64,000 nucleotides of DNA, taken from contig JACREF010000009.1 of NCBI GenBank assembly GCA_016218365.1, positions 62,001 to 126,000 of the forward strand, in the 5' to 3' direction. This document shows positions 23,595 through 41,125 of the stretch, in pieces (the first letter of the stretch is position 1; each line of letters opens with the position of its first letter). The DNA is from Gammaproteobacteria bacterium. Its GTDB lineage: Bacteria; Pseudomonadota; Gammaproteobacteria; SZUA-140. The notes below the pieces were generated by a model that saw only the letters and a program-made list of their open reading frames with translations, was not told the origin of the DNA and did not search any database. Made by a program: the position numbers and the translations under genes.

Positions 23595-24779
23595 TTATGG
23601 AATGGGCGTGTTGAGGCCGAAGCCGCCAGTATTGGTTTGCTGCTGATTTTGATTCGTTCCCTGGCCGCCAGCCACACATTGAGAACTTAATCTCATTACG
23701 TTGGGTAGGTTGGCCCATGTTATAAGGTCTGTGCAAGCAGGAACCTTGGTGACTTGCAGTGGTTTGATGGTATTGGTTCCAGTGACAACATTCATAGCTA
23801 GCGTGATTGCGTTGACACCTGGTGTAGGCTCGATTCTGACATAGGTGCTGGCGTCAGCGTCTATGCTCAGGCTTCCTGAGTCTGGATAAGTAACTCCTGT
23901 GCTCCATTGCAACGGGGTCGATTTTGTATTTAGCAAACGGCGCACGATTGATGTGCCATCTTCGTTGCGTTGCAATTCGATATCGTCCATGTGAAAGCTG
24001 TATTTATTAGTAATGTTCGCGTAGATTTTTGCGGTTTTTGATACAACGGCTGGATTTACGCCCAAGATGTTATCCGGGGTGGTGGCAGTGCTTCCAGCGT
24101 CGCTTGAATGCACCGTGCGTACTACCAGTTGTGAGTCGTTCTCAAAATAAAGGACGGTGCTTCCAAAAGGAAGTTGGAGGCTCACGGGGGTTATCGAGGT
24201 TGTAGGCGTAAAAAATACGACGGCATTTTGGGAGTCGTATTGTAGCTTGAGGTCTGTGATCAGCAGGTTCATGGATGTTCCCCATGAGCCACTGAGGAAA
24301 TTTTCAAGCCTTAATTTTCCGCTGATATTTGGGTATATTGATGAACTGTTGCTGAATTTACATGTGCCAGTTGATCCGAAATCAATTACAAAACTTGTTT
24401 GGCCTGGAGTCATTGTTGGGCTAATGGAGACGCTGCCAGAGCCGCCAGGGCAGAGGATGTTCTGATTGCCTGAGGTGGAAATTTGTGTGTTGATCCAGGT
24501 CAGTATGCCTAGCAGGCTCGGCGTGGCGCTAGCAGGGGAGGTTATATCCCAAGGGCGCGATATAGACTGCACAAGCTCACCGACCGCGCTAGCTGTCAGC
24601 GCTGCACCACAGTTGGTTGTGTTTGGATCCTGGCAAGTGAGCTTGCCATTATCCGTGCTGCCACCAGTTATTGGTTGGCCATCATTGTTTGCTGGGTTGC
24701 TGTTGAGCGGGCTTCCACCACCGCCGCAGGCGGCCAGGACCAGGATGACGGGGAGCAGCAGGGCTTGAAACGTTTTCAT
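23595..24779 (-). CDS. Predicted lipoprotein of unknown function
   Basis: MKTFQALLLPVILVLAACGGGGSPLNSNPANN, LAAC lipobox followed by a Gly/Ser/Asn-rich linker. Confidence 0.75.
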   Translation of the reverse strand: MKTFQALLLPVILVLAACGGGGSPLNSNPANNDGQPITGGSTDNGKLTCQDPNTTNCGAALTASAVGELVQSISRPWDITSPASATPSLLGILTWINTQISTSGNQNILCPGGSGSVSISPTMTPGQTSFVIDFGSTGTCKFSNSSSIYPNISGKLRLENFLSGSWGTSMNLLITDLKLQYDSQNAVVFFTPTTSITPVSLQLPFGSTVLYFENDSQLVVRTVHSSDAGSTATTPDNILGVNPAVVSKTAKIYANITNKYSFHMDDIELQRNEDGTSIVRRLLNTKSTPLQWSTGVTYPDSGSLSIDADASTYVRIEPTPGVNAITLAMNVVTGTNTIKPLQVTKVPACTDLITWANLPNVMRLSSQCVAGGQGTNQNQQQTNTGGFGLNTPIP

Positions 24780-25020
24780 ATCATCGCTTCTCGTAATTGC
24801 TGTGCCCAGGCAGGGCAATAATGGCCAAATTTTAACACATCTCCAGGGCAGGGCCGTCAGATTGAGCCTAAGCTGCTGAAAATAAAGAAGCCTGTGATTG
24901 CTGCCCCACGTTACGACTTAAAGTAGACAGACAGGATAACCGATAGTTCCTTGTGGAATGCTTAATTGGCCAGTGAGGGCGCAGCCTGCGTCCCGGGCCT
25001 GGCGGACAGCGAGTCGAATC

Positions 25021-33585: not shown

Positions 33586-33662
<77 letters not shown>

Positions 33663-33858
33663 TTAAAAACAATAAGTTATGTTGATTTTTAGTTGCCGGC
33701 ATGTTTAATTATCGAGCATGGAAGCAATATGGAAGCCATTTGTAATCATTTAGGTTGCGCACGCATCGGGGAGATCGGTTCAGTTCATGGTAATATGAAA
33801 TAAGGCCGATATTGTCTGAGACGAGTATTGTTGCATTAGACAAAATTGCGCATATTAT

Positions 33859-34095
33859 ATGACCTTGTTAGATATATATTCTAAAGTTACACAGCCTTGG
33901 AATCTGACGATGCGCAACAAGATGGTTACTATCAGCGGTGCTGGCGTTTTAGAAGTCAACGCATCTAAGCTTCTGAGTTCCCAGGAAGGTAAGCGTCAGA
34001 TCGAGGCACTGAAAGACATCCAAATTGTTAGGAGTGCAGGAAGCGGGAATCTAGAGCGGCAGACACAGGTCCGCCCGAAACAAAAAACCGCGTAG
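33859..34095 (+). CDS. Small hypothetical protein (78 aa) at the start of the accessory island
   Basis: ORF MTLLDIYSKVTQPWNLTMRNKMVTISGAGVLEVNASKLLSSQEGKRQIEALKD...; 35 bp upstream of the next co-directional ORF. Confidence 0.5.
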   Translation: MTLLDIYSKVTQPWNLTMRNKMVTISGAGVLEVNASKLLSSQEGKRQIEALKDIQIVRSAGSGNLERQTQVRPKQKTA

Positions 34096-34130
34096 ATCGT
34101 TGGCTTGTTCGCGAATCAGCGGATTAGGTA

Positions 34131-34913
34131 ATGGATCAGGCCGGTTTAGTTCCATTCCTTATATTGCCGTTGATTGGCGGCTATGCATTCTCAATAACGT
34201 GGACCGCCTCACTTTATAACTCAGCCAGAGAAGATGGGCAGCGAATATATTTTCGCGCTGCATTCTATGGAGTTTTTCTGACCCTATGTGCTATCTGCAT
34301 CCACATAATACTTTTGAATTACTCGGCAGGGTACAGTAGGCTGCTAGCAACCGCCTCAGAGGCGATCGGCGCGGCAGGCGTAGTTCCAGAAATGTGGAGC
34401 ACTGTCGCAATAGTCGCAATATTGTTTATATCATTTATGCTGGGGCCGCTCGCCTCGCATGCGCTAAATTTACTGAATGTAATAATTCCTAGCTGGAACA
34501 AATACCAGCTACTACAGGCGATAAAGCATGACGAGCTAGAGGAGCTGATATATCACTCAGTAAAATACGAGAAGCCTCTGCTGGTCACATTAGATTCCGG
34601 GAAGGTCTATGTTGGTTGGGCTGTCGTGGCGCCAAATCCGCTAGCTGCTGTAAAGCATATAAAAATGCTACCTCTGCTGGGCGGCTACAGAAACAAAGAT
34701 ACGCAGCAAGTGGAGTTTACAACCAATTACCACGAGATAATAACAAGTATAGAACAGGAGAGTGATCTTGATCATTTAACGTTAGATGATTTTTTCGTTA
34801 TATTGCCGACAAAAAATATTATCCTTGTTCATGGGTTTGATATAACAGCGTATAACAAATTCTCGACGCGGGGTGATGAAGAGCCGACTGATGAAGCTGA
34901 CCTAAGCGGTTAA
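34131..34913 (+). CDS. DUF6338-like membrane protein
   Basis: Hydrophobic N-terminal half (three candidate TM segments) and C-terminal PLLVTLDSGKVYVGWAVVAPNPLAAVKHIKMLPLLGGYRNKDTQQVEFTTNYHEII; low GC. Confidence 0.72.
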   Translation: MDQAGLVPFLILPLIGGYAFSITWTASLYNSAREDGQRIYFRAAFYGVFLTLCAICIHIILLNYSAGYSRLLATASEAIGAAGVVPEMWSTVAIVAILFISFMLGPLASHALNLLNVIIPSWNKYQLLQAIKHDELEELIYHSVKYEKPLLVTLDSGKVYVGWAVVAPNPLAAVKHIKMLPLLGGYRNKDTQQVEFTTNYHEIITSIEQESDLDHLTLDDFFVILPTKNIILVHGFDITAYNKFSTRGDEEPTDEADLSG

Positions 34914-35071
34914 GGTTATAGATTCATGGTGGCGCTGGAAAGAAGATGCTCAGGAAGCTAAGGCCTCGTGGGTAAGCGGGGTAGTGAGGCAGAGAAGTAA
35001 GTATAATCACATAGAATGATTGAGCGCCAAATAATCCGTCCCTTTGAACCGCGAAAGACAAGCATTATATA

Positions 35072-38000
35072 GTGGCTTACCCGCCGCTTATGGATTTTAC
35101 AGGTGACAGGTTGACCAGAATCCAACGCAGTTTTCGAGAGCTTTCGGATGAGGTGCTCAATTCTGTCGAGCAGGCTTCCCAGCTGGTCCAGATGGGGTGG
35201 TCTGGAACATTCGGGTGGGATGAGCTGCTCAAGTCACAGCGTATTCTGATCGTTTCTGAGGCCGGGACTGGCAAGACCTATGAATGTCAGGCCGAGAAGG
35301 ACAGGCTATGGAGGGCCGGCGAGGCGGCTTTTTATGTTGAGTTAGGGGAGCTTTCTCGCAACAATCTGCGCGATCTCTTGCCGGCTGAAGAGGAAGAACG
35401 CCTCGACGCTTGGCTAACTTCGCAATCCGATGTTGCGACCATATTCCTCGACTCCATCGACGAATTGAAGTTGACGCTTGGGTCGTTCGATGTAGCCCTA
35501 AGTCGCCTCAGCAAGGCGATTAAGGGGCAGCTCGGTCGGGCCAGGATCGTGATCACAACGCGACCCATTCCGGTCGATTATCACCTGATCCAGAAGCACC
35601 TGCCGATTCCCGAGAAGGGCGAGCTGGTCGCCAGTGGCGAAGCCTTCGCTGACATCGCGATGAATATGCAGCGCGACGATAAGAAGGCTAAGAAAGCCTC
35701 CGATGTTATCCCAGCTGTGCGGCATGTAGCGCTGATGCCACTCTCAGATGACCAGGTCCGAGAAATGGCAGCGTTGCAGGGGGTGACCAATGCAGGCGCA
35801 CTGCTCGAAGATATCCGCAGGCGCAATGCGGAGGATTTTGCCCGGCGGCCACAAGACTTGATCGAGCTATGCGCCAATTGGCGCGACCATCGTCGCATCA
35901 GCACTCATCGCGACCAAGTTGCGTACAATATTGCGATCAAACTGAAGCCGCGCACGGATCTAAGGGAAAAGGCGCATCTCTCGGGGGACAAAGCGCTTGA
36001 AGGCGCCAGTCGCCTTGCAATCGCTGCACTACTGACTCGTAAGCTCACCTTTCGGCATAGCACCGAAGCGGACAGTGGCGGCGAGCCAGGAACGGCCTTG
36101 GACCCGGAAGAGATCCTATCCGACTGGTCGGTTGATGAGATTAAGACTCTGCTTGAAAGGGCGCTATTCGGCTTTGCTAGCTATGGCCGCGTGCGGTTCC
36201 ATCATCGATCTGTGATCGAATATCTTGCGGCCAAGCGGCTGGAGAGCTTGCTTGATCGGGGCATGTCGATGAAGGCGGTTAAGCGCATGCTATTCGCCGA
36301 AACTCCGCAGGGTATAAAGGTTGTGAAGCCATCGATGCGACCAGTCGCTGCTTGGCTTTCTTTCTCTCAGTCAAGTATCTTCAGTGAAGTACGCGATCGC
36401 GAGCCTGACGTCTTGCTCAATTATGCCGACCCTGAATCACTGACGTCACAACAGCGCATCGATGCCTTGCGCGCCTATGTCGAACGATACAGTCATGGTA
36501 GCTGGCGCGGTATGCATGTGCCACGCGTGCAAGTTCACCGTCTTGCCTCGAATGATTTAGCCCCTGAAGTCCTGCGCCTGTGGGAATCAGAGATTGAGAA
36601 TCCGGAAGTGCGGGAGCTGCTCTTGGAGCTCATCGCGGCAGTTCCTATGCGGGGCGGTGCTGACATCGCCTATCGGGTCGTCATGCGGCGTGACGCCGAG
36701 ATCAGCGAGCGTGTGGACGCGCTTGATGCGCTAATCAAACTCAATGATGTTCGTCTTGATGTGATATCCGCCTCCATGGAGCTTGATGTAGGCATATGGC
36801 CCGCCAGACTTCTTAGGGCTTCGATACTGAGGCTATTTCCGGCGCATATACCGATCGAGCGCTTGTGCCGCATTCTCGCGCGCGTAACCGAATCTCGGCA
36901 CAGCGCTGGTGACTTAAGCTGGCTTTGGCCTCGATTGATTGCCGAGGCTGATATGACATCTGTGTACCGGGATGCGTTGCGTGCTGGGCTGACCGATCTC
37001 GTGACAGAAGGTGTCGAATGGAGCAATAAATTGTATCGCAATGTCTCGCTGAGGCAACATCTCGTTACCCCACTAACCGCTGTCTGCCTTCGCCAGATGA
37101 TGGAAGACGACATATCGGCTGCTGTCATTAAATCAAGTGTCATTGCCCTCCGGCTTGCGCGGGATGAATATCGTCACGACGAGGCTGCTGTCGATTTGCG
37201 AAAGGCGCTTGCGCAGTCGCCGGCGGCAGTGAGGGAAATGGCATTCTGGGCTGATGATGCTTGCATTCATGGTTATCGCCTTCAGGAAGACCCGCGGCAT
37301 CGCCTCTTCGAAGTCAATCATAACGGCGCGATCAGCTTGAATGCCTCTCAGGACAAGAGCTGGGTCCTAGCGAATCTCTCCGATCTGAAACGACCGCTCG
37401 CCGAGCGTGCCATGATGCTGGAAGCAGCGATGCGCGAGATGTGGGATGGTCAAGGCGAGTGGTGCAACTATGCGCCGATGCTAAAGGACCATGTTGCCGA
37501 TTGTCCCACGCTCACGGCGCATATCGTCGACCATCTCAAGCCTGCACCCGTCAATCACGAGCTTGCCTGCATGGTAAAGAAGAATAAAAAGCGCATGGAG
37601 CAGGCTAAGCATCGCCAGACCAAGGATCACGAAAGCTGGGTTATGTTCTGGGAAGAGGTAGCGAATAATCCGCAAACTGTTTTTAGTATCGATCGAGCAG
37701 AGAATACTGCCTGGAACTTGTGGAGAGCGATGAGCCGCTCTGGCCAGGAAAGCCGTTCTTCTGGGTGGAACCGTCGTTTCATCGAGCAGTATTTCAGCAA
37801 GGATGTTGCCGATAGACTGCGCGCGTCAATGATGAGTATCTGGCGCGGTGATCGACCCACGCTGCGCAGTGAGCGTCCTGAGAACGAAAAGGGAACCTTC
37901 CTTGTCCGCGGGCAGCTAGGTCTCGCTGCAATTGCAGCGGAAGCTGAAGACCCGAGCTGGGCTCGTAATCTGTCAGTCAAGGAAGCGGAGTTGGCAGCCC

Positions 38001-39466
38001 GTTATGTGCCGATCGAACTAAATGGATTTCCGTCCTGGTTTGAGAGTCTTGCTGTGGCGCATCCTACCGCCGTCGAAGCCGTGCTTGGCCCGGAGCTCAC
38101 AAGCGAGATTGACGAGATGGCGACTGTTGGTTCTCACTCCTTTTTTTTGCAGAATCTTAGCCATGCGGCCTCGCCCATCGCTAGCTTGTTTATTCAGCGG
38201 CTTCGCGTTTGGTTCGATGTGAATGCACAACGCATTCGGGAAGGCGAGGAAAGTTCAATGGCGGCAGAGCGCCTCCGGCGGGTGGTAGATGTTCTATTAT
38301 GGTGTGGTGATCATCAGACTCGTGGGCATATTTGCATTATTGCGACGAAGCATCTCACTGGCGGATTTGATCCTGTCTTCGCATATGTATGGTTTCCAAT
38401 CCTGATGCGGCTGGACCCTTCTACAGGTACTGAGTGGCTCGAAAAAGGCTTGAACGGAGTAGAGCCCGGCCCTTACGGCCAGGGCATAGATTGGATGAGT
38501 AGTCTATTTGGCGATTATCATAATGAAACGGGGGTTGATCTCCATACGCCCGAATTTACCCCGGACTTACTGCTACGGCTCGTACGACTCGCCTTTCGCC
38601 ATGTGCGACCTTCGGATGACATTGTCCATGACGACGTCTATACCCCGGGTGCCCGCGATCATGCCCAGAGGGGACGTGATGCGCTGTTGAGCGCGCTTCT
38701 AGACGCCAAGGGGCCCGAGGGCTGGGTTGTGAAGCTCAAAATGGCCAACGATCCACTATTTGCGCATTTTCGCGACCGGGCCTTGTTGATTGCGCGCGAG
38801 AAGGCCGCCGAGGAATCTGATAGAGCAGTGCTATCCGAGCTTGATGTAGTTTCAATCGACCGCTACCGGGAAGCGCCACCCACCACCCGCGATGAGATGT
38901 TCGCGCTAATGGTAGATCGTCTCGACGACCTTTATGATCTGTTGCTTCAGGATGATTCGCCGCGCGCTGCATGGGCTATCATCTCCGATGAGAAAGTGAT
39001 GCGCCGTGAAATCGCACGTCAGCTGCGCTATGCAGCCAACCACGCCTACACTGTCGATCAAGAGGGATCGACGGCTGACGAAAAGGAAACCGACATCAGA
39101 TTGCGCGCCACTGGGTCCGACCAGCAGGCCGTAATAGAGCTGAAGCTAGGTGATGAACGATCGGGCCGGGAATTGCGCGACACAATCAATGAGCAGCTTG
39201 TGACCAAATACATGGCACCGGATACTCGCCGCTCCGGGTGCTTACTGGTTACCGTCGCCAAGGATCGCACATGGCAGCACCCAGACTCCAGCGAGCTCCT
39301 TGATGTTGCCGGGCTAGAAGCAATGCTTCAGGAGGAGGCGGCGAAAATTGCTATCGATAGAGTATTCACCGTGCTGCTCACCACACGAGTGCTCGATCTG
39401 CGGCCACGTCTTCAGACCGAGAGCAAGTCGACGGTGGTACGGGCGCGGAAGAAGGGCCTGATTTAG
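35072..39466 (+). CDS. NACHT/STAND-type NTPase with long helical middle and C-terminal PD-(D/E)XK-like nuclease signature; candidate defence protein
   Basis: Walker A ILIVSEAGTGKTYEC, Walker B ATIFLDSIDELK, RIVITTRP, NACHT-type VRFHHRSVIEYLAAKRLESLL; C-terminus EKETDIRLRATGSDQQAVIELKLGD (D...ExK). GTG start, alternative ATG at 35090. Confidence 0.8.
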   Translation: MAYPPLMDFTGDRLTRIQRSFRELSDEVLNSVEQASQLVQMGWSGTFGWDELLKSQRILIVSEAGTGKTYECQAEKDRLWRAGEAAFYVELGELSRNNLRDLLPAEEEERLDAWLTSQSDVATIFLDSIDELKLTLGSFDVALSRLSKAIKGQLGRARIVITTRPIPVDYHLIQKHLPIPEKGELVASGEAFADIAMNMQRDDKKAKKASDVIPAVRHVALMPLSDDQVREMAALQGVTNAGALLEDIRRRNAEDFARRPQDLIELCANWRDHRRISTHRDQVAYNIAIKLKPRTDLREKAHLSGDKALEGASRLAIAALLTRKLTFRHSTEADSGGEPGTALDPEEILSDWSVDEIKTLLERALFGFASYGRVRFHHRSVIEYLAAKRLESLLDRGMSMKAVKRMLFAETPQGIKVVKPSMRPVAAWLSFSQSSIFSEVRDREPDVLLNYADPESLTSQQRIDALRAYVERYSHGSWRGMHVPRVQVHRLASNDLAPEVLRLWESEIENPEVRELLLELIAAVPMRGGADIAYRVVMRRDAEISERVDALDALIKLNDVRLDVISASMELDVGIWPARLLRASILRLFPAHIPIERLCRILARVTESRHSAGDLSWLWPRLIAEADMTSVYRDALRAGLTDLVTEGVEWSNKLYRNVSLRQHLVTPLTAVCLRQMMEDDISAAVIKSSVIALRLARDEYRHDEAAVDLRKALAQSPAAVREMAFWADDACIHGYRLQEDPRHRLFEVNHNGAISLNASQDKSWVLANLSDLKRPLAERAMMLEAAMREMWDGQGEWCNYAPMLKDHVADCPTLTAHIVDHLKPAPVNHELACMVKKNKKRMEQAKHRQTKDHESWVMFWEEVANNPQTVFSIDRAENTAWNLWRAMSRSGQESRSSGWNRRFIEQYFSKDVADRLRASMMSIWRGDRPTLRSERPENEKGTFLVRGQLGLAAIAAEAEDPSWARNLSVKEAELAARYVPIELNGFPSWFESLAVAHPTAVEAVLGPELTSEIDEMATVGSHSFFLQNLSHAASPIASLFIQRLRVWFDVNAQRIREGEESSMAAERLRRVVDVLLWCGDHQTRGHICIIATKHLTGGFDPVFAYVWFPILMRLDPSTGTEWLEKGLNGVEPGPYGQGIDWMSSLFGDYHNETGVDLHTPEFTPDLLLRLVRLAFRHVRPSDDIVHDDVYTPGARDHAQRGRDALLSALLDAKGPEGWVVKLKMANDPLFAHFRDRALLIAREKAAEESDRAVLSELDVVSIDRYREAPPTTRDEMFALMVDRLDDLYDLLLQDDSPRAAWAIISDEKVMRREIARQLRYAANHAYTVDQEGSTADEKETDIRLRATGSDQQAVIELKLGDERSGRELRDTINEQLVTKYMAPDTRRSGCLLVTVAKDRTWQHPDSSELLDVAGLEAMLQEEAAKIAIDRVFTVLLTTRVLDLRPRLQTESKSTVVRARKKGLI

Positions 39467-39551
39467 TAATTGGATCAGCTCGATTAGTATATGCCACCAT
39501 GTGTATTAGAGAGATGGCGTACAGTTATTGACAGAACTCCAAGTTAGAAGA

Positions 39552-39608
39552 GCGGCCTGCGGCCGCGTTCTGAAAAATCCAGAACGGTCCCGGAACTGCT
39601 CCGGGACC
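39552..39608. repeat. Three abutting perfect hairpins
   Basis: GCGGCC-tgc-GGCCGC; GTTCTG-aaaaatc-CAGAAC; GGTCCCGGA-actgc-TCCGGGACC, back to back. Confidence 0.8.
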
Positions 39609-39830
39609 GGGCACAGAACGATGCCGGGAAGGTTCCGGAACGCCTCCGACCCCCGCCTGTAGGTATCCGGCCCCGTTCCGGCCCAAAGGGTGTGCAGTGT
39701 ACGCACCTTCTGCGCTCGTTGCGCAATCTGCGTATCTTAGTCTGCACTCGCTATGTACAGTTGCGTAAAGCCGTTGCGCTCCGGTACGCGCCGTTGCACA
39801 ACCCATGTGCGCACCCCCGCTCTGCACACC

Positions 39831-39902
39831 GAGCACAACATACCGCAGCGCCTCCCCGTAACGGCCGGGCTAGGTGTTGTGCTCTTTACGTAACGTTACG
39901 GG
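39831..39902. repeat. Nested inverted repeats
   Basis: GAGCACAACA (39831-39840) / TGTTGTGCTC (39875-39884); CCCGTAACG (39855-39863) / CGTTACGGG (39894-39902); palindrome CGTAACGTTACG (39889-39900). Confidence 0.75.
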
Positions 39903-40006
39903 CAGGTCTGTGCGCTTGACCGTGGGGGCCCGCTCATCACGTTAACGAACTCGGCCCAGTCGCCCTAGTCGGCGCAGTTGCCGTAGGCCTGCGTTATACT
40001 CAGCAC

Positions 40007-41125
40007 ATGGCTGAGTCCCTGAAGAAACATTTTGGCATCAAGATCCCGCAGACCATCGCCTCGATGGTTGGCGAGGTGTACCCGTTTTTTGATGGCGAGC
40101 GTTTCGTTGCCGAGGTGAAGAAGGGCTATCAGCCGCTGGAGCTGATGGCGCGCGGTTGGCAGATTGCTCATCACTTGCGCCGCCATCTGCCGGATGATTA
40201 TTCGCAGGCGATTGAGATCCTGATCGCCTCGCTTGGTCCGCGGCTGGAGCGGACCGAAGGTCTGGGCTTGGCGCCGTTTCTGTATTTGCCGCACGTGTTG
40301 CTGGTCGCGGAATATGGGCTCGGGCATTTCGAGGCGTCGATGCGCGCCCAGTATCAGCTGACACAGCGTTTTTCGGCCGAGTTCAGCATCCGTCGTTATC
40401 TTGAGCATCACCCGGTGGCGACGCTGCACGTGCTCAGGCAGTGGGCGACCGATCCCAGCCCGCATGTAAGGCGGCTGGTGTCCGAAGGGACGCGACCACG
40501 GCTGCCATGGGCATCGCGGCTGGCGATGTTTCAGCGTGATCCGCAGCCGGTGCTGGCCTTGCTGGAGCTGCTGAAGGATGACCCGGAGTTGTATGTGCGC
40601 CGTTCGGTGGCAAACAATCTCAATGACATCGGCAAGGATCATCGAGAACTGTTGGTGGCGACAGCGCGACGTTGGATGAAAGATGCCTCTGCCGAGCGGC
40701 AATGGATCATCCGTCATGCACTGCGCTCGGCCGTGAAGCAGGGAGACCGCGGGGCGCTGGCAGTGCTGGGTTTCGGCGCGGCGGCTGGGGCGAGGCTGCG
40801 GGATGTTGCCATTGCGCCGCAGCAGGTGCGCCGCGGTGGTTCGGTACAGATCGGGTTTGAGGTCTATAATGCCAGCGACCAGATCATGCCATTGCTGGTC
40901 GATTTCCGTATCCATTTCGTCAAGGCCCGTGGCGCGAGCCGGCCCAAGGTGTTCAAGTTGAAATCGATCAACCTGGGGCCCGGACAGGCGGTGCGCCTGG
41001 GCAAGCGCGTTTCGCTGGCCGAGATGACAACCCGCCGCCATTATCCAGGTGTCCATGCGGTCGACGTTCTGCTGAATGGCAAACCACACAAGCTGGGCAG
41101 TTTCACCGTGCTGCAGACAAAATGA
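40007..41125 (+). CDS. AlkC-like HEAT-repeat DNA alkylation repair protein with C-terminal Ig-like domain
   Basis: MAESLKKHFGIKIPQTIASMVGEVYP...FSAEFSIRRYLEHHPVATLHVLRQWATDPSPHVRRLVSEGTRPRLPWASRL...; beta-rich C-terminus. Confidence 0.88.
   Translation: MAESLKKHFGIKIPQTIASMVGEVYPFFDGERFVAEVKKGYQPLELMARGWQIAHHLRRHLPDDYSQAIEILIASLGPRLERTEGLGLAPFLYLPHVLLVAEYGLGHFEASMRAQYQLTQRFSAEFSIRRYLEHHPVATLHVLRQWATDPSPHVRRLVSEGTRPRLPWASRLAMFQRDPQPVLALLELLKDDPELYVRRSVANNLNDIGKDHRELLVATARRWMKDASAERQWIIRHALRSAVKQGDRGALAVLGFGAAAGARLRDVAIAPQQVRRGGSVQIGFEVYNASDQIMPLLVDFRIHFVKARGASRPKVFKLKSINLGPGQAVRLGKRVSLAEMTTRRHYPGVHAVDVLLNGKPHKLGSFTVLQTK

Follow-up and report, generated by a model that had tools for sequence, protein, structure and literature searches.

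We examined a 64,000-nucleotide stretch of a gammaproteobacterial genome (assembly GCA_016218365.1, contig JACREF010000009.1, positions 62,001 to 126,000), referred to here in its whole length as the window. The locus under study is a run of three open reading frames (ORFs) on the + strand, flanked by rpoD and a tRNA(CAT) on the left and by an AlkC/AlkD-like gene on the right. The coordinates agree with an earlier account made from the letters of the DNA alone (the original prediction), which had placed three co-directional ORFs of 78, 260, and 1464 amino acids (aa) between these flanks and had suggested that they form one sensor/effector system. Below, ORF1 and ORF2 are called the pair, and ORF3 is called hyoA. 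The features of the locus, with GC3 denoting GC content at third codon positions, are as follows.

33586 to 33662, + strand: tRNA with anticodon CAT (called Met; ARAGORN, Rfam), at the same place in relatives; left boundary of the variable slot.
33663 to 33858, no strand: AT-rich leader from the tRNA to ORF1, 36.7% GC.
33859 to 34095, + strand: ORF1, ATG start, small protein of 78 aa, first gene of the pair, recognized by its position upstream of membrane-protein relatives and a weak common core.
34131 to 34913, + strand: ORF2, ATG start, membrane protein of 260 aa, second gene of the pair, predicted to have three hydrophobic stretches and then a cytosolic domain (phrog_3630, hydropathy, alignment).
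34569 to 34871, + strand: predicted Sm/LSm-like barrel, residues ~147-247 of the membrane protein (AlphaFold2 model, PDB fold matches).
34914 to 35071, no strand: 158-bp gap between the pair and hyoA, including TATAAT at 35002-35007.
35072 to 39466, + strand: ORF3, GTG start, hyoA, predicted NACHT/STAND NTPase with a C-terminal nuclease motif, 1464 aa (NCBIfam NF058534).
35255 to 35278, + strand: HyoA Walker A, SEAGTGKT, residues 62-69, conserved in 16 homologues.
35441 to 35464, + strand: HyoA Walker B, IFLDSIDE, residues 124-131, conserved in 16 homologues.
39092 to 39145, + strand: HyoA PD-(D/E)xK-type motif, D1341 ... E1356-x-K1358, kept in 14 of 16 homologues.
40007 to 41125, + strand: AlkC/AlkD-like gene (Pfam DNA_alkylation; GC3 0.72), the right neighbor, outside both modules.

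The composition of the three-ORF segment is foreign. GC content is 44.2% across 33663-35071 and 55.5% across 35072-39466, against about 60-63% in the surroundings, and GC3 is 0.52, 0.46, and 0.60 for ORF1, ORF2, and ORF3, respectively, against 0.747 ± 0.067 for the 32 other long ORFs of the window. The AT-richness noticed originally, strongest at 33.66-35.07 kb, is therefore real. The AlkC-like gene has a native-like GC3, and its match to Pfam DNA_alkylation (22.5 bits) is barely above the cut-off of 21. Between ORF1 and ORF2 the gap is 35 bp, as first described, and between ORF2 and ORF3 it is 158 bp rather than 159. A TATAAT had been pointed out near 35003; it is present, but our promoter scan gave no -35 partner for it, and the region as a whole held 8 promoter-like sites against a shuffled expectation of 5.2 ± 2.1, which is close to chance. 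A terminator-like site on the + strand lies at 35071-35088, inside the start of hyoA. A search for att-like repeats found neither a direct repeat nor a copy of the tRNA 3′ end at the edges of the region. In line with the original prediction, no integrase was recognized by eye among the ORFs of 31.0-43.5 kb, the only part of the window scanned for one. Neither Pfam nor PADLOC placed any of the three ORFs convincingly in a family.

Throughout the bacterial family to which this genome belongs, rpoD followed by tRNA(CAT) is a conserved arrangement, and the sequence beyond it differs (genomes and loci carry our own G and L numbers). In genus g3, ~0.7 kb (G007), 1.3 kb (G011), 4.1 kb (G014), and 5.1 kb (G002) separate the tRNA from a DeaD-type helicase gene. 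In the slot, G002 (L068:1106-4740) carries a Fic gene along with a C-terminal type I restriction fragment, G005 (L062:1777-4356) carries an HsdM fragment and a PIN gene, and the content is different again in G009, G012, G004, G008, and G013; the pair and HyoA are both absent from the slot in all of these genomes. Most of the family has no AlkC-like gene, and where relatives of it do occur, in a few cases, they are on contigs other than that of rpoD. In G001, from the same family and a different genus, a HyoA gene occurs ~290 bp past rpoD; no tRNA was found on the rpoD-HyoA stretch of this assembly, which is 80% complete. Because the content of the interval varies and is not conserved in any informative relative, because the AlkC-like gene is mostly missing, and because the composition is foreign, these data support the segment downstream of rpoD-tRNA(CAT) being a variable accessory slot. 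The accessory insertion that had been proposed for this place is thus supported.

ORF3 matched NCBIfam NF058534, “NACHT domain-containing antiphage protein HyoA,” with 1518.1 bits (curated cut-off 1200 bits) over the complete profile (1-1430 of 1430). By this match it is a full-length HyoA, that is, an NLR-like NTPase and a new member of a known family. Residues G67, K68, and T69 of Walker A and D127, D130, and E131 of Walker B are shared by 16 HyoA homologues. D1341 and E1356-x-K1358 are kept in every one of the 14 homologues that have the C-terminal domain, a putative nuclease of the PD-(D/E)xK type by motif; the remaining two, from G012 and G051, are without the domain. The “NTPase-nuclease” label given to ORF3 beforehand was, judged by motif, correct. 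A PDB profile search with HyoA gave no match. In the HyoA tree, the window copy clusters (100/100) with copies from G159, Pseudomonas psychrophila, a plasmid of P. aeruginosa, and Rhizobium rhizogenes and Martelella plasmids, with the closest match in Martelella (54%). The HyoA of G001 (25% over the alignment) falls in the other main clade, together with that of G012. As the window and G001 copies sit in separate main clades, the tree indicates that HyoA reached the slot behind rpoD at least twice. At all other loci read, HyoA occurs without the pair.

Several HyoA relatives were unusual in form or setting. Those of G012 (L083:3361-7278) and G051 (L084:5273-9205), at ~1305-1310 aa, stop before the nuclease domain and may be natural nuclease-less forms or truncations. 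In G012, a tyrosine integrase gene (L083:8136-9308) lies near HyoA, a few kb from tRNA-Pro, and HyoA there resembles part of a mobile island. In G251 (L175:6554-9831), a HyoA-like sequence beside tRNA-Gly is broken into several frames and looks decayed.

Residues 9-253 of the ORF2 membrane protein match phrog_3630 (E = 9.8e-35; profile positions 5-257 of 274), a PHROGs family with function unknown; relatives turned up in phages, on IncC plasmids, and in scattered genomes. Residues K158, Y160, G162, G185, and R187 of the membrane protein are invariant. Nearly all of ~45 distinct relatives have a small ORF (~60-110 aa as called) immediately upstream, frequently with a one-base overlap, the exceptions being sequences truncated at the end of a contig or record and the divergent member L113. 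The window has the same arrangement, with the 78-aa ORF 35 bp upstream on the same strand. By themselves, ORF1 and ORF2 form a conserved bicistron. The small proteins have a common G-x3-V-(D/N) core with low alignment identities, so that their family rests mainly on position; the link was derived from where the small ORFs lie beside membrane-protein relatives, and tblastn with the 78-aa ORF alone gave no significant match. Single-protein scans of viral contigs left some queries with no or almost no matches. Literature searches on phrog_3630 and on the pair returned nothing relevant.

The place of the pair in enterobacterial P2-like prophages is the interval bounded by replication gene A and portal gene Q. 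This cos-proximal interval, the home of old and tin, is presented as a hotspot for antiphage systems by Rousset et al. 2022 (PMC9122126). Neighbors of the pair in the slot include bSEFIR (L101), HEC-06 (L143), PIN_12 (L134), and a ThsB-type TIR gene (L199); in the last of these, from E. coli FACU 2024 (L199:4501-7195), the pair is followed by a 243-aa protein without a Pfam match and the TIR gene. In other cases, among them L139, L155, L157, and E. coli Tig228, the distance from pair to portal gene is below 0.5 kb. Elsewhere, the pair adjoins attP in phiES15 and sits between repressor and integrase in phage C5a. DNA related to the pair of a Klebsiella phage was present in 62 of 5426 complete E. 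coli genomes. On a Salmonella IncC plasmid (CP082551.1, L096:6791-7789), the pair has on one side a mercury-resistance operon accompanied by a RecD-like helicase gene and on the other a gene for a DNA methyltransferase; relatives occur in 25 Salmonella plasmid records.

By hydropathy, the membrane protein has three hydrophobic stretches, and the C-terminal barrel comes after them. In the AlphaFold2 model, the barrel has a predicted local distance difference test (pLDDT) score of ~64-90, whereas the whole model is modest (mean 64.7; predicted template modeling score 0.43). When the barrel is compared with PDB folds, Sm/LSm proteins make up nearly all of the first 50 matches (best E 2.5e-3; target template modeling score up to 0.75). 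Given these matches on the one hand and the modest whole model on the other, we limit the structural reading to the barrel: this cytosolic domain is probably Sm/LSm-like. For the membrane protein, a profile search of the PDB returned hydrophobic or chance matches only.

We then considered whether the three genes belong together. Of 369 genomes from the class, 10 have a member of the membrane family and 19 a member of the HyoA family; the genome of the window is the only one with both. At the level of loci, 87 for the membrane protein and 42 for the HyoA family (partly redundant sets), both modules are present only in three views of the window itself. The pair travels without ORF3 and ORF3 without the pair, and the proposal of a three-gene sensor/effector system, which would have had the three families co-occur, is not supported. 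Because no outside locus holds both and because their GC3 differs, two neighboring modules are far more likely than one system. The difference in GC3, the co-occurrence only here among 369 genomes, and the double arrival of HyoA behind rpoD in the tree also suggest that pair and HyoA arrived separately.

Taken together, we favor, and think rather likely, an accessory slot that took up two independent phage-resistance modules, hyoA and the pair. Some points weigh against this. Without the window's genome, the genome counts are 9 and 18, with an overlap of 0 against ~0.4 expected by chance, so that the co-occurrence count is weak by itself and such small numbers leave room for a weak link between pair and HyoA. 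The nuclease call for HyoA comes from the motif, the fold model of the C-terminus being too poor for use. The “antiphage” label is the NCBIfam name, literature searches for HyoA and EruA having given nothing relevant, and activity here is presumed. Finally, cargo of the P2 slot includes non-antiphage genes too, according to PMC9122126.

In this reading, hyoA would be a one-gene NLR-like antiphage system in which the long C-terminal region detects an infection cue, the NACHT part oligomerizes, driven by ATP, and nucleic acid is then cut by the C-terminal PD-(D/E)xK-type nuclease, stopping infection or killing the cell. Trigger, oligomerization, and substrate are proposed by analogy with bacterial NLR-related proteins (PMC12169576). 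The pair would be a prophage-type module made of a small protein and a membrane protein, often with translational coupling between the two, the latter with three predicted transmembrane helices and an Sm/LSm-like barrel; it would exclude other phages at the membrane, either by blocking entry or by opening or depolarizing the membrane on infection. The small protein could be the cognate regulator or sensor of the membrane protein. The sites where the pair occurs make phage exclusion, with the small protein as regulator, its most likely use, which we nevertheless put forward tentatively. More doubtful, though possible, is the specific form in which the pair is an undescribed exclusion system whose membrane-anchored Sm-like ring, controlled by the small partner, blocks phage DNA entry or depolarizes the cell, and which is carried in the enterobacterial P2-like defense slot and has spread to IncC plasmids and other gammaproteobacterial chromosomes.

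The slot could instead have been filled in a single entry, the whole segment being a tRNA-integrated genomic island that has since lost its integrase. It begins directly after the tRNA 3′ end, its composition is foreign, and HyoA in G012 has a tRNA-Pro and a tyrosine integrase in its vicinity; yet the lack of direct repeats and of a duplicated tRNA end, the absence of a recognized integrase nearby, and the differing composition of the two modules make this unlikely. For the pair, the main rival to phage exclusion, and about as unlikely, is a toxin-antitoxin-like maintenance module in which the first, small gene keeps a toxin of the membrane in check. The order of small gene and then membrane gene, the one-base overlaps, and the presence on IncC plasmids are all consistent with it, but the pair is located in the P2-like antiphage slot and at prophage ends, and no toxin-antitoxin family was matched; the two uses are, moreover, compatible. 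Less probable still is a role for the prophage itself, in replication, packaging, or lysogeny, that is not aimed at other phages. The steady position by replication, DinI-like, and cos-proximal genes in enterobacterial P2-like prophages speaks for such a role, whereas most P2-like phages are without the pair, the pair sits in a variable slot, and IncC plasmids carry it too, as do chromosomes with no visible prophage. A single system of three genes, with the small and membrane proteins as sensor or anchor and the NACHT-nuclease as effector, is very improbable: despite a shared strand, close spacing, and no + strand terminator-like site between the genes save that within the hyoA start, the modules are adjacent at no other locus, share only this genome among 369, differ in GC3, and HyoA relatives are full-length without the pair.

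Two independent modules in one slot, the reading we prefer, split a supposed three-gene system in two: an antiphage NLR that is already catalogued, and a two-gene cargo module that is widespread and has no name. This reading also singles out the site downstream of rpoD-tRNA(CAT) as a slot for accessory genes that recurs in the bacterial family. The pair, an uncharacterized and widespread cargo module, is the more interesting part of the finding. Since it is small, is carried by P2-like prophages in both E. coli and Klebsiella, and comes with a concrete structural hypothesis, its function is directly testable. We also note, elsewhere in the window, a 407-aa ORF on the - strand (23595-24818) with a low GC3 of 0.53 and no Pfam match, possibly a further recent import.

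In MscS-type channels, three transmembrane helices are followed by an Sm-like beta domain. The membrane protein of the pair shares this order, three transmembrane helices and then an Sm-like cytosolic barrel, as a predicted resemblance only, with no sequence match to MscS and no MscS among the first 50 fold matches. The phrog_3630 record covers the membrane protein, and the upstream small gene is outside it. Relatives of the pair share their slot with P2 old/tin and the other A-to-Q hotspot systems; the window pair, in contrast, lies outside any P2-like prophage, and the pair is not named in the consulted parts of PMC9122126. With bNACHT (PMC12169576) and Avs/STAND proteins, ORF3 has in common a NACHT/STAND NTPase, an effector, and a long repeat-like region, and differs in that its nuclease motif is C-terminal; membership of Avs/AVAST was rejected, as no PADLOC model matched. 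EruA (NF058535, another NACHT domain-containing antiphage protein) is partially alike, over ORF3 residues 204-933, but its 103.8 bits are far under the cut-off of 1000, and membership was likewise rejected. It is HyoA (NF058534) that ORF3 equals in full length, Walker A and B motifs, and C-terminal nuclease motif, and among the HyoA loci read, the window copy alone has the pair upstream.

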